DNA from: an uncultured Alphaproteobacteria bacterium
Lineage (GTDB): Bacteria > Pseudomonadota > Alphaproteobacteria > CAAHEQ01 > UBA3637
NCBI GenBank assembly: GCA_949286465.1
Contig: CASECI010000052.1
Span: forward strand, 1 to 35,080
Direction: 5' to 3'
DNA length: 35,080 nucleotides
Every line of letters begins with the position of its first letter. Within the stretch, counting starts at the first letter, position 1. Positions 5,829-31,964 of this stretch are shown here, one piece after another. Made by a program: the position numbers and the translations under genes. The notes under the pieces are model-generated. The model was not told where the DNA came from, made no database searches, and was given only the letters and a program-made list of their open reading frames with translations.

Positions 5829-6629
5829 TTAAGTTCTACTAAGTACGTTTTTTAGATTTGTTGCTATTTCTTTGTTCTGTGAAAGGACAAGGGAAGGAAA
5901 AAAATCTCCTCCATCACCACAACCATAATACCATTTTGACCCTGTTAATATATTTTTAGTTTCAAAATAAATACTATTCCTACCTTCTGTTTGTATATGA
6001 ATTTGCTTTTCAAATTGTTTCTTATGCGTATCCGTCATTTCAACAGAGGAAATTCTAGGAAAATATCTTCCAGAGCTCAACATTGGATTAGATGGATCGT
6101 AAACATAATCTTTTGTTCCTACAACAAATGTTATGAAACTATGTGGTTCTCCTTTCTCGTCTTTTAAAGAATGTACTAATTCACCCCCAAAATACTTTGA
6201 CGCAATTCCCTGTCTTTGAAGGAACAACTGAGCAAGTAGAGCTATTTCTGCGCATTGACAAACTCCCTTTTGAAAAGCCTGAGATAAAGTTCTGCTTCCT
6301 CTTATATCATAGAAATTTTGCCGTTGTTGAACGTTTTTTGATAAATCGGGATACATTTTCCTAAGGACATGATCAAAAACATACATTTGCATAAATATTT
6401 TTGAATCAAAATTAGAAGCAATTTCTTTAAACCATTCTATATTTTTCTCGTTTTTCTGAAGAGTGATGACCGTTTTTTCTGCACATTCAAATAAGTCTTT
6501 AAATTTATCAGTATCGACTGTAACAAGTAAATCTAATTTGCTAGGGAACGAACCGCCGATAGGAACTTTATCATTCTCCTTTATATCACAAATACGACAA
6601 TTTGTTTCATTTAGCTTTTCAAAAAGCAT
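5829..6629 (-). CDS. Transglutaminase-like (papain-fold) protein
   Basis: This 266-residue protein carries the core of the transglutaminase-like fold. The segment CAEIALLAQLFLQRQGI has the usual C-x-E-x-A...GI spacing with C126 as the likely nucleophile, H163 in EPHSFITF as the second residue and D178 in YVYDPSNP as the third. No signal peptide or membrane segment is visible, so it is probably cytoplasmic. Bacterial members act as peptidases, amidases or protein-crosslinking enzymes; which one applies here cannot be told. An N-terminal C-x2-C pair (C11, C14) is a minor oddity. The start has GAGG about 7 bases upstream. It is transcribed alone, divergent from dacA, with a shared AT-rich spacer of about 190 bases. 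Confidence 0.7.
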   Translation of the reverse strand: MLFEKLNETNCRICDIKENDKVPIGGSFPSKLDLLVTVDTDKFKDLFECAEKTVITLQKNEKNIEWFKEIASNFDSKIFMQMYVFDHVLRKMYPDLSKNVQQRQNFYDIRGSRTLSQAFQKGVCQCAEIALLAQLFLQRQGIASKYFGGELVHSLKDEKGEPHSFITFVVGTKDYVYDPSNPMLSSGRYFPRISSVEMTDTHKKQFEKQIHIQTEGRNSIYFETKNILTGSKWYYGCGDGGDFFPSLVLSQNKEIATNLKNVLSRT

Positions 6630-12655: not shown

Positions 12656-12697
12656 TTTATGGATAAAATAGAAGAAACATATCACAATGAGGGGAAA

Positions 12698-15562
12698 ATG
12701 ACAGAAGAAGAAAACAAGCAATCATCCGAACTTCCTCCTGCAGAGTATGCAGGCCCTCCTAAGTCACATACTTTTAAAGATGAAACAACAACTTCTCAAA
12801 ACATCTCTTCTCCTGTAATAGAACCTGCCTCTCAACAGGATACAACTACTTTGCCTAAAACTGATACAGCTGTTTCCAAGAATCAAACCGAAAATCAAAT
12901 CAAAATTCCGCCTCACGCTCCAGCGCATATTGGCATGTTATCAGAAGAAGAAGCTGAAAAAGAAATTTTAGATATTCCAACAAAACAGCCCGCTTTAATT
13001 GATTTAATTGCTGATCCTGCCGATAATCCTGAAGAACAACCTAAAAAGAAATTTGAATTCAAATGGCACTTCGATCCTAAAATCTTTAAAAAATACAAAG
13101 ATGAAGTACGTGACTTCTTTAAAAAGTATCCTATGATTTATAAAGCATTCCAAGCAACTTGGATATGCTTAATGTTAGGTATTTATATCGGTGGTATTGC
13201 GTTCTTTTCTATCTTCTTCGTTCTCTATTTCGCTTTTACCCCCTTGCTTAAAAGTTACCTAGATTCAAGAGGCCTATCAAATATTGAATTCACTGTTGCT
13301 TCTCATAGTTTATCTGACTTAACAATTAAAGATATTCGAGACAAAAATGGTTTGTTTTCTATTAAAACACTTCGATTACAGTATACTTTTACTAACTTCT
13401 TAAAAGGAAAAATTACTCTTGCAGACGTCGATACATTAGAAATATTTATCAAACAAACACCACAAAAGGGATATAATGTTCGTGATTTAATGATGATTTT
13501 CCTGAAACTTGGGCTAATGGATAAAAACAGTCCAATGCATGTTCAATCTTTGCAATTTAAAAACTCTAAAATTTTCTTGGATAATAAGGAATTTCCAATC
13601 GACTTCTCTGGAATCGGCGATCTCGAAGTTCAACGCCAATTCGTTATCCCTTTTACAATACAAAATGAGTATATTACGGCTAATGCTTCTCTAACAACAG
13701 AACTCAATAACACTGGAACTATTTGGACAATTACTCTTGACAATGGAAAATTAACACTTCCTCAACTCCCAGCTGAAGATTTATCAGGAACTCTTGTTTT
13801 CAATACAAAAAATACACATTTCAGAAATTTCAACGCCGATCTTACTTTAAAGCAAGAAAATAGTGAAAAAAAATTAAAATTACAAATACTTCCTACGCAA
13901 AATAATAGACTCAATGCTAACCTTAGCCTAGATATCCCCTCAGCAAATGAACAAAAGCCTATACAAATTGAGCTTACTCTGCGTAATGTAGAACTCTCTA
14001 ATGATCTCAAAGCATTTTCAACAGATGATCCTTTGAATATTAAAATAACAAACATTACTTCTAGCTTTTTAACTACTCAAACATTACAAGCCTCTTTAAA
14101 TGGGAAGCTAAACTGCAAAAACAACCTTTGTTCTTTTAAACAGGAAAGACCTTCAGACATTATATTATTCTCTCCGATAAAAAAAATATGGGACACCGAA
14201 TTTAAAGCTTCTTACCCTTTAAGACTGACAATTACTCCTTCTAAGAATGATTTATTTGTGCTTGATAAAAGAAAGTTATCATTCGATGCTATCTTAAGAA
14301 AGTCATCTTTTAATCTAACAAAACAAAAAAGTACAAATGAAACAGAATCTTTCACAATATCAACAGGTGAAACAACTTTAAAAGGGGAATTTGATCTTTT
14401 ATCTAAAAAGGGAACTTTAGAAACTAACTCTGAAAATGTATCCATTTCTGATGACGTATTAAAACTAAGCAGAGCTAAAGTTGAGACACGTACAAATACG
14501 GAAGGCTCTTCTATAAGCATTTCCTCCCCTTCTGTATCTTTAACTGAAAACGATTTATTAAAAGTGCCTTTTGCTCTTCAGCTTCAGATAACGCCCGATC
14601 AATATTTTAGCATGTTGCTTCAAACAAGTAATAGACAAGTTACTTTGAATGCTAATGGTTACTTTAGTCCGTTTACCGGCGAAATCTTAGCCGCTGTTGA
14701 AACTCAACCTATCGTTTTCAAAAAAGGAAATTTACAACCGCATCAGATAAGCGGAATTATTAGTGATGACCTCAAAGAGGTCTCCGGAACAATCTCTCTT
14801 CGTGGACAATTTCATTGGAAAAATGACCGCAGTATCGATGGACCTATGAATATTGCCTTAGATAAAGTTTCCTTTGATTATGGAAATACAAAAATAAATA
14901 ATTTAACGACAATGATGGAGGTAACTTCTTTTGTCCCATTCGGTACAAAAAGAAATCAAGAGGCTTTTATCGAGTCTATTCTAACAACACTGCCTTTTAC
15001 AAATATTGGCATCAACTATTATTTCGACGCTTCAAAAAAACAATTAAATATATCTCGTATGAATATGGAACTTGCTGATATTATATTCAGAATTGACCCT
15101 TCCTGGTTAACATATCAGTCACCCGTTCAATCTATTTCCTTTAAGGCTAAAAATATTGATTTGGAAAAACTTGTCCCTTATGTCAACTTAAATGATTTTA
15201 ATATGCAAGGAAATATTTCTAATGCGAGCTTCTCTCTCCAGATGAATGATGAAAATGTTTTCTTGAAGAATATGGAATTAACAATTCCTCAAGATGGTTC
15301 AATTTCTTATCAACCAGATGTATTTACGAATACAGCTCTTGAGATATTCAAAGATCTTACTTTTAAAAAGGCAACCGTCATTCTAAATGAATTAGAAAAT
15401 CAAACAATCGATTTCTTGTTTATTGGCGATAATACAAATCCTCAAGATAAAAGAAAAACAACTATTCGTTTCAATATTACAGAACCTCTGCATAACTTTA
15501 TTAAAACAACCAAAATAGAAGCTATCCCAGACGAAGTTTCAGAAAAAATGAAACTATTTTAG
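12698..15562 (+). CDS. Large AsmA/YdbH-like membrane-anchored protein
   Basis: The protein has about 954 residues. The first 150 or so are polar, rich in Glu, Pro, Gln and Thr, and look disordered and cytoplasmic. One strong membrane segment follows (WICLMLGIYIGGIAFFSIFF). The remaining 780 residues are beta-rich with repeated short strands, as in AsmA-like proteins that bridge the periplasm. Toward the end, NMQGNISNASFSLQM and MELTIPQDGSISYQPD resemble the YdbH group, implicated in phospholipid transport between the two membranes. A first ATG at 12659 lacks a ribosome site, whereas the ATG at 12698 has GAGG 5 bases upstream and is preferred. It follows ligA at once, and no YnbE- or YdbL-like partner gene is next to it. 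The family is moderately sure and the function is inferred. Confidence 0.65.
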   Translation: MTEEENKQSSELPPAEYAGPPKSHTFKDETTTSQNISSPVIEPASQQDTTTLPKTDTAVSKNQTENQIKIPPHAPAHIGMLSEEEAEKEILDIPTKQPALIDLIADPADNPEEQPKKKFEFKWHFDPKIFKKYKDEVRDFFKKYPMIYKAFQATWICLMLGIYIGGIAFFSIFFVLYFAFTPLLKSYLDSRGLSNIEFTVASHSLSDLTIKDIRDKNGLFSIKTLRLQYTFTNFLKGKITLADVDTLEIFIKQTPQKGYNVRDLMMIFLKLGLMDKNSPMHVQSLQFKNSKIFLDNKEFPIDFSGIGDLEVQRQFVIPFTIQNEYITANASLTTELNNTGTIWTITLDNGKLTLPQLPAEDLSGTLVFNTKNTHFRNFNADLTLKQENSEKKLKLQILPTQNNRLNANLSLDIPSANEQKPIQIELTLRNVELSNDLKAFSTDDPLNIKITNITSSFLTTQTLQASLNGKLNCKNNLCSFKQERPSDIILFSPIKKIWDTEFKASYPLRLTITPSKNDLFVLDKRKLSFDAILRKSSFNLTKQKSTNETESFTISTGETTLKGEFDLLSKKGTLETNSENVSISDDVLKLSRAKVETRTNTEGSSISISSPSVSLTENDLLKVPFALQLQITPDQYFSMLLQTSNRQVTLNANGYFSPFTGEILAAVETQPIVFKKGNLQPHQISGIISDDLKEVSGTISLRGQFHWKNDRSIDGPMNIALDKVSFDYGNTKINNLTTMMEVTSFVPFGTKRNQEAFIESILTTLPFTNIGINYYFDASKKQLNISRMNMELADIIFRIDPSWLTYQSPVQSISFKAKNIDLEKLVPYVNLNDFNMQGNISNASFSLQMNDENVFLKNMELTIPQDGSISYQPDVFTNTALEIFKDLTFKKATVILNELENQTIDFLFIGDNTNPQDKRKTTIRFNITEPLHNFIKTTKIEAIPDEVSEKMKLF

Positions 15563-15616: not shown

Positions 15617-16066
15617 ATGAAAACTTTTATTTTATGGACTATTACTATTTTAGCTTTGAGTAGCTTATTTCTTCTCATAAAAGCTCCACTTATAGGTGCT
15701 CTATTTTTATTTTTCCTCTTTATATTTTCTATTATTCTTTCTTTTCAAAAAAAGAAGTCTATCTTACCTCCTGTCATGTGGCTTTATCCCAAAATCGTAT
15801 TAGCTTTCGTTTTCTTATCTTGCATCGGATATAGTATATATCTTTACTTAAAAAATATCCAATGTGTCTCTTGTATGCATGGGATTCTTGCTGCAAATCT
15901 GCCAATGTCTCTTTCCTATGCTGAAGACAATATTATCTCTTTTCTCAAAGGACTATGGGCTCTTAATAATCGTGTTTGTTTCTTCTTTTTATTTATCGGA
16001 TTTTTCATAATTTTACATTTATTTTCTCATTTTTATAAAAAGGAAAAAGGACGTTCACATGCTTGA
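15617..16066 (+). CDS. Membrane protein resembling a shortened NuoJ
   Basis: This protein of 149 residues has about four membrane segments. The first two, around ILWTITILALSSLFLLIKAPLIGALFL, resemble the first two helices of NuoJ, the complex I membrane subunit. The conserved third NuoJ helix (the VYVGA...LF segment) is not found. The end, AEDNIISFLKGLWAL followed by a final hydrophobic helix and a Lys-rich tail, is placed like the NuoJ C-terminus. The identification rests mainly on position: the next gene is clearly NuoK/NuoN-like, and J-K is the normal order. The frame also opens from a TTG at 15581; the ATG at 15617 is chosen for its better match, and AGG precedes both. It overlaps the next gene by 8 bases. 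No other assignment is evident. Confidence 0.5.
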   Translation: MKTFILWTITILALSSLFLLIKAPLIGALFLFFLFIFSIILSFQKKKSILPPVMWLYPKIVLAFVFLSCIGYSIYLYLKNIQCVSCMHGILAANLPMSLSYAEDNIISFLKGLWALNNRVCFFFLFIGFFIILHLFSHFYKKEKGRSHA

Positions 16067-16700
16067 TTTTCCTTTAGCTATATGGATTAGTTTTAGTATT
16101 GTCGCCTTTGGCGCTTTCGGTCTTTTTTTTAGTCGCCAAGTAAAATATCTTATCTATTTTACTTCATTAATTTTTTGTGGAAGCTTATTCAATATTCTCA
16201 ATACAGCTCACTATCTCAACGACATTCGTGGCTTTATGTTATGCCTTTTCTTAATTATCGGATTTGCTCTTGAAACGGCAACAGAAATTTATTTACTCAA
16301 AAAGAAGAAAATCAAATCCTTTTCTCCAATTTTTTATGCATTAGCTTTTATGAGTTTCTTTCTTCTTGCTACCGCTAGAGACTTATTGTCCTTAATTATT
16401 GGATTAGAAGGATTCCAAATTTGTCTTTATGGTTTTGCTTTAAAACGTGAGAAATTAAAAAATATTTTACTCCCCTTATTTAAGGAAGGACTAGTTTCTT
16501 ATAGTGCTCTTGTATATGGGATCTCTATTTTGTATCTGACGCGAGGTCAATTCAGTCTGGTCGGATTACGCCTATCACTACAGTCACTTCATCCGATCGA
16601 CCCCTTTATTTTAATTGGTATCGGGTTGTTTGCTTTAGGAATTCTCATTAAAATAAATGGCTTTATTTTAATATCTAGGAAAAAATATCATCATGTTTAA
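16059..16700 (+). CDS. NuoK-NuoN-like fused and truncated complex I membrane protein
   Basis: The protein has 213 residues and about six or seven membrane segments. Residues 1-82 look like NuoK: FFSRQVKYLIYFTSLIFC and FLIIGFALETATEIYLL match its helices 1-3, but the first conserved membrane Glu appears to be Ile38; the second is kept as E72. Residues 91-202 follow NuoN closely from its helix 4: LLATARDLLSLIIGLEGFQ keeps the conserved Glu (E117), then ALVYGISILYLTRGQFSLVGL, and DPFILIGIGLFALGILIK ends just where NuoN would continue with VPFHxWTPD. The rest of NuoN, about 300 residues, is absent. It could not pump protons in the known way. It sits before birA and RNase J, where nuoN stands in other alphaproteobacteria. 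It is either a remnant or a reused membrane protein. Confidence 0.65.
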   Translation: MLDFPLAIWISFSIVAFGAFGLFFSRQVKYLIYFTSLIFCGSLFNILNTAHYLNDIRGFMLCLFLIIGFALETATEIYLLKKKKIKSFSPIFYALAFMSFFLLATARDLLSLIIGLEGFQICLYGFALKREKLKNILLPLFKEGLVSYSALVYGISILYLTRGQFSLVGLRLSLQSLHPIDPFILIGIGLFALGILIKINGFILISRKKYHHV

Positions 16701-17358
16701 ATCCTATTACTTTGAAAAATTAGACAATACGAATGATACAGCTAAATCATACCCGATATATAGTGCCATTTATACAGAGCAACAAATAAAAGGTCGAGGA
16801 AGAATGGGAAGAACTTGGGAGAGCATCAAAGGAAATTTATTTACGTCTCTTGTTGTTCCTGCTTCTGCTGATGCATCTGACTACAGTTTTATTGCAAGTT
16901 TAGCTGTTGCTTTAACCTTAGCTCCTCTTTCTCCAAGGATTAAATGGCCTAATGATGTTCTTATTCATGGGAAGAAAATAAGTGGCATTCTTTTAGAAAC
17001 ATTTAATGAAAAACTTATTATTGGAATAGGAATAAATATTATAGGGAATCCCTTACATACCCTTTATCCAACGACATGTTTAAAAGAATGCGGCATTGAA
17101 GTCACATCTAAAGTTATTTTTGAAAAATTGCTCCAAAATTTTTCTGATCTATTACTGATATACGGAAAATCAGGATTTAAAGATATTAGACGTCAATGGT
17201 TAGAATTTGCTGCAGGATTAGGACAAAAAATAGAAGTTCATCTCCCCCAAAAAAATTTAACCGGTATTTTTAAAAATATAAATGAGCAAGGAGCTCTTCT
17301 TCTAGAAACGCCTGAAAAAGAATATTCAATTACAGCAGGTGATGTTTTTATGATTTAA
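16693..17358 (+). CDS. birA: Biotin-protein ligase BirA (ligase domain only)
   Basis: This enzyme activates biotin with ATP and attaches it to a lysine of carboxyl carrier proteins. Motifs seen are GRGRMGR near 35 (the biotinoyl-AMP loop), TWESIKGNLFTSL, IKWPNDVLIHGKKISGILLE and IGIGINI. At 221 residues it has no N-terminal helix-turn-helix, so it is the single-function form without repressor activity. It overlaps the end of the NuoK/NuoN-like gene by 8 bases and precedes the RNase J gene by 10, as in the tail of alphaproteobacterial nuo clusters. Confidence 0.92.
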   Translation: MFKSYYFEKLDNTNDTAKSYPIYSAIYTEQQIKGRGRMGRTWESIKGNLFTSLVVPASADASDYSFIASLAVALTLAPLSPRIKWPNDVLIHGKKISGILLETFNEKLIIGIGINIIGNPLHTLYPTTCLKECGIEVTSKVIFEKLLQNFSDLLLIYGKSGFKDIRRQWLEFAAGLGQKIEVHLPQKNLTGIFKNINEQGALLLETPEKEYSITAGDVFMI

Positions 17359-17368
17359 AGGAAAGAAA

Positions 17369-19048
17369 ATGATAGAAGAAAATCAAGAAACTGAATTCAT
17401 TATCCCTCATGATTCCCTCGTATTTATTCCTCTTGGAGGCGTAACAGAAATAGGGCAAAACTTTTTCTTATATGGATATAAAGGAAAATGGCTTATCGTT
17501 GATTGCGGATTAGGGTTCCCTGGAGATCATTTCCCTGGAGTTGAAGTTCTGTTGCCTGATCCAACTTTTATTGCACAACACAAAAAAGATATCGTCGGCT
17601 TATTCATTACACACGGGCATGAAGATCACATTGGTGCTATCCCTTATTTATGGCAAGATTTACAGTGTCCAATATATGCAACCCCTTTTACAGCAGAGTT
17701 AATTGAAGACAAGTTAAATGAATTTAATTTAGTCGGGAGAGCTCAGTTGGAAGTTATAGAGCAAGGAGCTTTATTAGAACTTCCTCCTTTTGAGATAGAG
17801 TTTATTCCTGTTAATCACTCTATTCCTGAACCAAATATGCTCGCCATCAGGACAAAAGAAGGGACGATTATTCATACAGGAGACTGGAAATTTGATTCCT
17901 CACCTGTTATCGGTGAAAAAATTAATATCGATACATTAAAAGAACTAGGTCGAAATGGCGTTCTTGCTTTAGTTTGCGATTCTACAAATATCTTTTCTGA
18001 AAAAGAAGAAAAAACAGAACAAGATGTTCGTTCTTCGTTGATAGAAATTTTCAAAAGCGCCCCTTCTCGCATTATTATTACTTGCTTTGCCTCTAATGTA
18101 GGAAGAATTGAAAGTATCTATCAGGCTGCTCATGAAACAGGAAAGCAAGTTTGTCTTATGGGACGCTCTTTCTGGCGAATAGATAGTGCTGCTAGAGCTG
18201 CCGGTTATATGAAAAATATTCCTCCTTTTTTAACAGAAGAGGAAGCTGAAAATATTCCCAAAAATAAAATTGTTTATATTTGTACAGGAAGTCAAGGCGA
18301 ACCTTATTCCGCATTATCTAAAATCGCCTCTCAAAATACAAACGAGTTATTCATGTTAGGTGAAAGTGACACTGTTATTTTCTCTTCTCGTGTCATACCA
18401 GGAAATGAATTAGCCATTGCCGCCTTACAAAAACGCCTTTTAATGTCTGGATGTACTATTATTACCGATAGAGAAAAACTTGTTCATGTGTCAGGACATC
18501 CTTCTCAAGACAGCATGAAAAAATTATATGAATACTTAAAACCTCAAATTGCTATCCCTGTTCACGGAGAACCTATGTATATTATTGAGCATAAAAAACT
18601 CGCCGAAAAATGGGGGGCAAAAAATGCAATCATTGTAGAAGAAGGTGACGTTTTAGAACTAAATGATGGCGATCCTGAAATTATAGGGGAAGTTCCTGTC
18701 GGTTGTTTAGCCGTCGATGGGAAAAAAATTGTTTCTTTAGGCGCTGATGTTATCAAAAAACGTCGCAAAATGATTGAAGGTGGAAGTGTTGTCGGAACAG
18801 TTGTTGTGAATCAAAAAGGAGATCTATTGGGAGAACCTCAAATATCATCATTCGGATTACTTGATACAGATCCTTCTGATTTAGAAACGCTTATTCAATT
18901 GATAAAAAAGAATATCAGCGATATGGATAATTCTCTCAAAGAAGACGATGCAACGTTAAAAGAAACTATCCGCTTAACAATTAGACGCTTTATTACTGAG
19001 CAATTCGGGAAAAAGCCTTTAATCGAGATTCATTTAGTTCGTATATAA
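17369..19048 (+). CDS. rnj: Ribonuclease J
   Basis: RNase J is a metallo-beta-lactamase and beta-CASP ribonuclease with 5'-exo and endo activity, used in rRNA maturation and mRNA decay in alphaproteobacteria. The metal-binding THGHEDHIGAIP stands near residue 76-87, VNHSIPEP and HTGDWKFD follow, the beta-CASP part has the CTGSQGEP segment and the SGHPSQDSMKKL motif, and IPVHGEP is near 395. The C-terminal domain is present. At 559 residues it is of normal length. AAGGAAAG just upstream of the ATG is a strong ribosome site. Confidence 0.95.
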   Translation: MIEENQETEFIIPHDSLVFIPLGGVTEIGQNFFLYGYKGKWLIVDCGLGFPGDHFPGVEVLLPDPTFIAQHKKDIVGLFITHGHEDHIGAIPYLWQDLQCPIYATPFTAELIEDKLNEFNLVGRAQLEVIEQGALLELPPFEIEFIPVNHSIPEPNMLAIRTKEGTIIHTGDWKFDSSPVIGEKINIDTLKELGRNGVLALVCDSTNIFSEKEEKTEQDVRSSLIEIFKSAPSRIIITCFASNVGRIESIYQAAHETGKQVCLMGRSFWRIDSAARAAGYMKNIPPFLTEEEAENIPKNKIVYICTGSQGEPYSALSKIASQNTNELFMLGESDTVIFSSRVIPGNELAIAALQKRLLMSGCTIITDREKLVHVSGHPSQDSMKKLYEYLKPQIAIPVHGEPMYIIEHKKLAEKWGAKNAIIVEEGDVLELNDGDPEIIGEVPVGCLAVDGKKIVSLGADVIKKRRKMIEGGSVVGTVVVNQKGDLLGEPQISSFGLLDTDPSDLETLIQLIKKNISDMDNSLKEDDATLKETIRLTIRRFITEQFGKKPLIEIHLVRI

Positions 19049-31151: not shown

Positions 31152-31964
31152 TTATCGCGATTTTGATTGTTTTAGAACAAAATTAATCTCAGGTATCTTT
31201 CTTGAACCATCTAGTTCATTAAAAAACTCTCTACTACAAAGCATCGGATTGTCAATCTTTAAATAAGCATAATTATAAGCCTTCTTTTCGAATTGCATCA
31301 ACTGCTCTAGAGTTCTTTTTTCCTCGGCTGAAACACTATCTGTTCCAACTAAACATGCATCACAGACTGCCGCTGCTTTTTCAACATAATTTGTTTTCTT
31401 TTCTAACGTCCATATTGGCTCATAGTCTCCCTTTTCATTTGCCTTCATCATAAAAACATCAACACAATCTATTGTATTTGCTATTTGATCAGCCATCTTA
31501 ACCATTTTTGCGGATAAACTCATTGTCTTTGCATGCTCTGATTGCCATACTTTCTTTGCGGCATCCCTTTCCTGTTTTGTTTCTCCAGGAAAGCCTTCTG
31601 GAGGATTAGATAACTCTTGAACTAAAGAAGCTGTTTTATGAGCATTTGAAACCCCCATAATAGGAATAAGAGCAATAGTTAACTTATTTTGATTGTCTAA
31701 CGGCGTATCCTCTATTGCATCGTGGGCTAATGCAGAAGCCAAAATAGGAATATTCTTCTCATCTTTTAAAACCTTTTCGGGCTCCCCTAAAGCATTTGCA
31801 ACGATTTCCATAACTCTGAAAGGATGCGTTATATATAAAGCACGTATACCTTTTTTATTCAGCCCTTTCCGCTTTTGTCCCTCATGAGCTTTACAAACAA
31901 GCTCCCAGACATCTGATAAAACCTTATTCGCTCTAATATCTTTTACTGTTAATTGCTGATACAT
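31152..31964 (-). CDS. MESH1-like HD hydrolase (RelA/SpoT-type hydrolase domain only)
   Basis: This 270-residue protein is an HD-domain hydrolase with the pattern of the (p)ppGpp hydrolase part of RelA/SpoT: AHEGQKRK (26-33), YITHPFRV (H47), ALAHDAIEDT (H81, D82, E85, D86) and VKMADQIAN (D159, N163). The synthetase, TGS and ACT domains of long RelA/SpoT are absent, so it resembles small alarmone hydrolases such as MESH1. Hydrolysis of (p)ppGpp or a related nucleotide (MESH1 also acts on NADPH) is inferred. GAGG lies close before the ATG. It is a single gene, divergent from the XRE regulator. Confidence 0.75.
   Translation of the reverse strand: MYQQLTVKDIRANKVLSDVWELVCKAHEGQKRKGLNKKGIRALYITHPFRVMEIVANALGEPEKVLKDEKNIPILASALAHDAIEDTPLDNQNKLTIALIPIMGVSNAHKTASLVQELSNPPEGFPGETKQERDAAKKVWQSEHAKTMSLSAKMVKMADQIANTIDCVDVFMMKANEKGDYEPIWTLEKKTNYVEKAAAVCDACLVGTDSVSAEEKRTLEQLMQFEKKAYNYAYLKIDNPMLCSREFFNELDGSRKIPEINFVLKQSKSR

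Follow-up and report, generated by a model that had tools for sequence, protein, structure and literature searches.

A NuoK-NuoN chimera conserved beside birA in small-genome Alphaproteobacteria that appear to have lost complex I

Gene content of the locus

The window is one complete 35-kb contig (35,080 nucleotides) from the draft genome of an uncultured alphaproteobacterium (1.24 Mb, 98.8% complete, 5.8% contamination). Two small membrane genes, here ORF1 and ORF2, lie 5′ of birA and an RNase J gene (Table 1). The preliminary description had reported two overlapping genes with intact frames at this place, and both the coordinates and the 8-base overlaps were confirmed. Six further ORF1-ORF2 pairs, each from an independent MAG, have ATG starts and no internal stops. 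Related alphaproteobacteria that have complex I carry the genes in the order nuoJ-K-L-M-N, several of them with BirA as the frame adjoining nuoN. ORF2 sits at this ancestral junction of nuoN and birA, as had been proposed. Promoter and terminator scans gave no signal that altered this picture.

The YdbH-like (AsmA-type) gene directly 5′ of the pair is linked to it by position only, and a functional link may exist. One published account implicates the YdbH-type family in phospholipid transport between the membranes (PMC11226057). Elsewhere in the window, three long ORFs had no Pfam match at E 1e-4: 78-1514 on the forward strand and 5832-6629 and 31155-31964 on the reverse strand.

Table 1. Positions of the genes, gene junctions and residues discussed in the text, numbered along the window. 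The labels g1, g6 and g9 denote the three genera that carry the pair.
Feature	Position	Strand	Remarks
YdbH-like intermembrane phospholipid transport gene	12659..15562	+	PF11739, E 3.9e-22; 5′ of the pair in 7/7 genomes
ORF1	15617..16066	+	149 aa, intact frame, four predicted TM helices; neighbor of ORF2 in 7 genomes
C83-x-x-C86 of ORF1	15863..15874	+	Invariant in 7/7 homologs; predicted periplasmic, after TM3
ORF1 stop/ORF2 start overlap	16059..16066	+	8 bases in 6/7 genomes, 7 in the remaining one
ORF2	16059..16700	+	213 aa, intact frame, seven predicted TM helices; NuoK::NuoN chimera
NuoK-derived part of ORF2	16059..16322	+	Residues 1-88, TM1-3; profile ranking, hhalign, model match
E72 of ORF2	16272..16274	+	Aligns with NuoK E72; Glu in 6/7 homologs, Gln in one
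NuoN-derived part of ORF2	16323..16658	+	Residues about 89-200, TM4-7, ends at the NuoN lysine helix; profile ranking
D108 of ORF2	16380..16382	+	Alphaproteobacterial NuoN TM4-5 motif (SANDL); invariant across the chimera family
E117 of ORF2	16407..16409	+	Aligns with NuoN TM5 Glu (E133 in E. coli); retained by g1 and g6, replaced with Ser or Val in g9
K198 of ORF2	16650..16652	+	Aligns with NuoN TM7 Lys (K217 in E. coli); retained by g1 and g6, replaced with Glu in g9
ORF2 stop/birA start overlap	16693..16700	+	8 bases in 5/7 genomes; 14 and 4 in the remaining two
birA, biotin protein ligase	16693..17358	+	TIGR00121, E 3e-42; ancestral nuoN neighbor
RNase J gene	17369..19048	+	TIGR00649, E 1e-136

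Chimeric ancestry of ORF2

ORF2 is a chimera of NuoK and helices TM4-7 of NuoN. Scanned as a single sequence against NCBIfam, it is matched by the NuoN model TIGR01770 over residues 30-200 (E 6.7e-9, far below the whole-protein cut-off) and by the NuoK model over residues 10-77 (E 0.004). A profile built from the seven homologs retrieved both subunits from the PDB, with NuoN structures (E 2e-9) aligning over profile positions 69-207 and NuoK structures (E 2.5e-4) over 15-89.

The two ancestries separate when the profile is split near residue 89 and each half is run against every long frame in 15 alphaproteobacterial nuo operons. The first half placed the 15 NuoK frames on top (15/15, E 2e-8 to 3e-4; next best E 1.0), and the second half did the same with NuoN (15/15, E 1.6e-10 to 9e-6; next best NuoL at 0.027). 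Profile-profile comparison agrees. The first half scored 32.0 against NuoK and 13.5 against NuoN residues 1-95 by hhalign, and the second half scored 57.2 against NuoN 90-230. NuoK and NuoN 1-95 show no resemblance to each other in such a comparison, so the NuoK match of the first half is not a by-product of NuoN ancestry. The N-terminal part was also considered as NuoN TM1-3 and rejected on these scores. Thus, the earlier reading of the second protein as NuoK joined to NuoN helices, and stopping before the rest of NuoN, stands.

Structure prediction points the same way. The models were built from three sequences only and are weak (mean pLDDT 49 for ORF2 and 57), and the best matches to residues 1-88 of the ORF2 AlphaFold model are NuoK/ND4L chains (top Z 11.4). 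No other match of the models is prominent. Helical bundles can reach a Z of this size by chance, so the fold match counts as supporting evidence only. In the predicted topology of ORF2, which is consistent with such a fusion, positive loops follow TM1, TM3 and TM5 on the presumed cytoplasmic face, and the C-terminus is positive on that face too.

Residues 1-88 share with NuoK/ND4L, the E-channel subunit of complex I, three TM helices, the conserved Gly of the TM2-3 loop and the Glu of TM3 (E72). NuoK is a separate subunit of complex I, whereas here it is fused to NuoN helices and complex I is absent. Residues 89-200 resemble TM4-7 of NuoN/ND2, an antiporter-like subunit of complex I, in the DLLxLxxGLE segment, the YG of TM6 and the Lys of TM7. 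NuoN has 14 helices arranged as two inverted half-channels, but ORF2 has NuoK in place of TM1-3, ends after TM7 and lacks TM8-14. The NuoN part belongs to the same superfamily as MrpC/MrpD of the multisubunit cation/H+ antiporters. Residues 94-172 give a weak alignment to the MrpC model (E 6e-4), and the NuoN match given above is far stronger. No other antiporter-type subunits were found in the window's genome. Neither a NuoK-NuoN fusion nor the ORF1-ORF2 pair turned up in the open-access literature searched.

The partner protein ORF1

ORF1 sits where nuoJ would lie, and it had been described as NuoJ-like. This part of the preliminary description did not hold. By hhalign, ORF1 scored 15.7 against NuoJ with a probability of 0.4%, which is noise level. 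Among the nuo-operon frames, the best NuoJ ranked only 14th for the ORF1 profile (E 23). HMMER in both directions and PF00499 run on all family genomes also gave nothing. As no profile method detects a likeness, and as the invariant CxxC is not a NuoJ feature, we rejected the assignment; as far as sequence can tell, ORF1 is not recognizably NuoJ/ND6.

No credible match to ORF1 was found in Pfam, NCBIfam, PHROGs, PDB sequences or PDB folds. The placement of its CxxC in the periplasm is a prediction from positive-inside loops. DsbB-like and VKOR-like proteins are four-helix thiol oxidoreductases, and they resemble ORF1 in having four TM helices and a CxxC on the predicted periplasmic side. ORF1 differs from them in having no second invariant cysteine pair, and it does not match them in Pfam, NCBIfam or PDB sequences. 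In the genomes searched, ORF1 occurs only together with ORF2, and it is likely the partner of ORF2.

Residues of the proton path

The proposed proton path of E. coli complex I includes NuoK E36 and E72, a Lys/Glu ion pair in NuoN, and the central and distal Lys of NuoN (PMC9271201). The chimera retains this set in part. At the E36 position the window's genus has Ile, as had been noticed from the sequence, and all seven homologs are non-acidic there (I, L, A or T), so this TM2 Glu of NuoK is gone from every member. E72 and E117 are both kept in the ORF2 of the window, again as first described. The ion pair between the TM5 Glu and the TM7 Lys of NuoN is present in genera g1 and g6 and absent in g9. 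ORF2 ends before the PFHxW motif, and the central Lys, the distal Lys and the exit half-channel are therefore missing. A PF00361 search found no second piece of NuoN elsewhere in the genome. Without these parts the chimera cannot pump like complex I.

These residues bear on an alternative in which a cytoplasm-facing half-channel for protons or cations, formed by the NuoK and NuoN parts, would energize a partner in the absence of complex I. Proton access would power or gate a function in the periplasm that involves thiols, metal or lipid transport, with the partner being, for example, a redox or metal site at the CxxC of ORF1 or the neighboring YdbH-type lipid transporter. The retention of E72 and of the TM5 Glu and TM7 Lys in two genera is consistent with this, as are the invariant CxxC and the constant presence of the YdbH-like neighbor. 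Against it stand the universal loss of E36, the lack of the exit half-channel, the central Lys and the distal Lys, and the purely positional nature of the YdbH link. The loss of the ion pair in g9 also means that no clade-wide function can depend on the Glu-Lys pair and that no single charge-based mechanism fits all members. We consider this alternative possible but rather unlikely. The ion-handling role raised in the preliminary description thus fits the residue pattern only in part, since one of the three genera has lost the pair.

Distribution and selection

The pair is found in 7/43 genomes of the family, in three genera, each time between the YdbH-like gene and birA; 10 of the 13 genera lack it. 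BirA proteins from the pair-bearing genera form one clade (support 98/90), which would fit a single vertical history if the BirA tree is taken as a proxy for the species tree. No further chimeras were seen in the family or the class among the matches listed (385 class genomes); the class matches listed seem to be NuoN or NuoK frames standing on their own, or frames that lie at the ends of contigs.

Two cysteine-rich proteins were observed near this locus. A relative of the same genus encodes, near the same locus (L033:14989-16323, reverse strand), a predicted protein that is very rich in cysteine, with repeats such as CCNNSYCDGRCCNGVCC, and unusual for an alphaproteobacterium. The sister genus, g8, has a protein of cysteine-rich repeats (CxxCPANTYY type) 5′ of birA (L044:3-950, reverse complement, in the birA direction), in the place that the ORF1-ORF2 pair occupies in other members.

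We estimated selection between two of the genomes (G007 and G016), for which dS is about 0.65 and synonymous change is unsaturated. The dN/dS of ORF2 is 0.152 (Fisher 6e-20) and is equal in the NuoK and NuoN halves. ORF1 has a dN/dS of 0.204 (Fisher 4e-11), and BirA one of 0.076. Within the genus, the proteins of ORF1 and ORF2 change at a BirA-like rate.

The frames could be leftovers without function from an eroding nuo operon. The rest of complex I is lost, NuoN is cut short, one genus shows drift at key residues, and the pair is missing from most genera of the family, all of which would suit such decay. However, a dN/dS of 0.15-0.20 (p below 1e-10) at unsaturated dS is not that of recent remnants, the frames are intact in seven genomes and three genera at identities down to 28%, and the rate of protein change within the genus is similar to that of BirA. 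We regard decay as improbable. The preliminary description had left two options, recent remnants or a reused small membrane module; selection and retention in three diverged genera contradict the first and favor the second. ORF1 and ORF2 are thus most likely functional proteins and not recent debris.

Still less probable is that the two genes persist solely to couple translation into birA, with the protein sequence being unimportant. The 8-base overlaps at both junctions would allow this, but an open frame would suffice for coupling and would not need amino acid conservation, whereas ORF2 has held on to its NuoK and NuoN motifs and each of its halves has a low dN/dS.

Loss of complex I

Complex I was searched family by family, and of its subunits the search covered NuoD, NuoH, NuoJ and the antiporter subunits. 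For PF00346 (NuoD), PF00146 (NuoH) and PF00499 (NuoJ), none of the 43 family genomes yielded a match above cut-off; 27 of these genomes are at least 90% complete and no more than 5% contaminated. PF00361 (antiporter subunits) was above cut-off in one genome among the 43, and only for the chimera itself. In the window's genome, PF00346, PF00146 and PF00361 were absent above cut-off and PF00499 had no match. Control genomes were positive in these searches. The claim that NuoL and NuoM are missing is borne out for full antiporter subunits across all 43 genomes. The loss of normal complex I, also claimed at the outset, is likewise upheld: on the basis of absent NuoD, NuoH, NuoJ and full antiporter families, this family of small-genome bacteria appears to have lost complex I.

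The clear NuoK and NuoN parts and the remaining charged residues might have suggested that the proteins still work in a reduced complex I-like enzyme that is redox-driven and has its genes elsewhere in the genome, but this is effectively refuted by those absences.

Proposed origin and role of the chimera

ORF2 is established as a chimera, the locus is syntenic, both genes are under purifying selection, and NuoD, NuoH, NuoJ and full antiporter subunits are absent. From this we propose that a deletion fused nuoK to nuoN and that the product was kept, together with ORF1, as a small non-respiratory inner-membrane module. We give this reading a probability of about 0.6. Its deletion history is one that we infer from the anatomy of ORF2. 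During the loss of complex I, a deletion in an ancestral nuoJ-K-L-M-N-birA region would have fused the 3′ end of nuoK with the beginning of NuoN TM4. The topology would have stayed legal because NuoK TM1-3 takes the place of NuoN TM1-3 in the same orientation. The part of nuoN after TM7 would then have been lost, leaving the present gene before birA.

The 213-residue product would have been retained by selection as the core of the module. Co-conservation and overlapping genes suggest that ORF1 and ORF2 form a complex, in which ORF1 may supply a periplasmic thiol or metal site. The shared role of the module is probably structural or partner-organizing. In the two genera that keep E72, E117 and K198, a buried protonatable pair open to the cytoplasm may have been retained, and proton handling would be possible there.

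Complex I is thought to have evolved by the accretion of antiporter-like parts. The locus described here presents the reverse case, in which parts of complex I have been removed and a fragment is under selection without the surrounding enzyme. The chimera offers a small, naturally occurring system in which to learn what the E-channel subunit and the first NuoN half-channel can do on their own. It is also an example of a fusion that probably arose through a deletion inside an operon and turned into a conserved gene. These observations suggest that, in small-genome bacteria without complex I, a piece of a broken machine has been put to new use.
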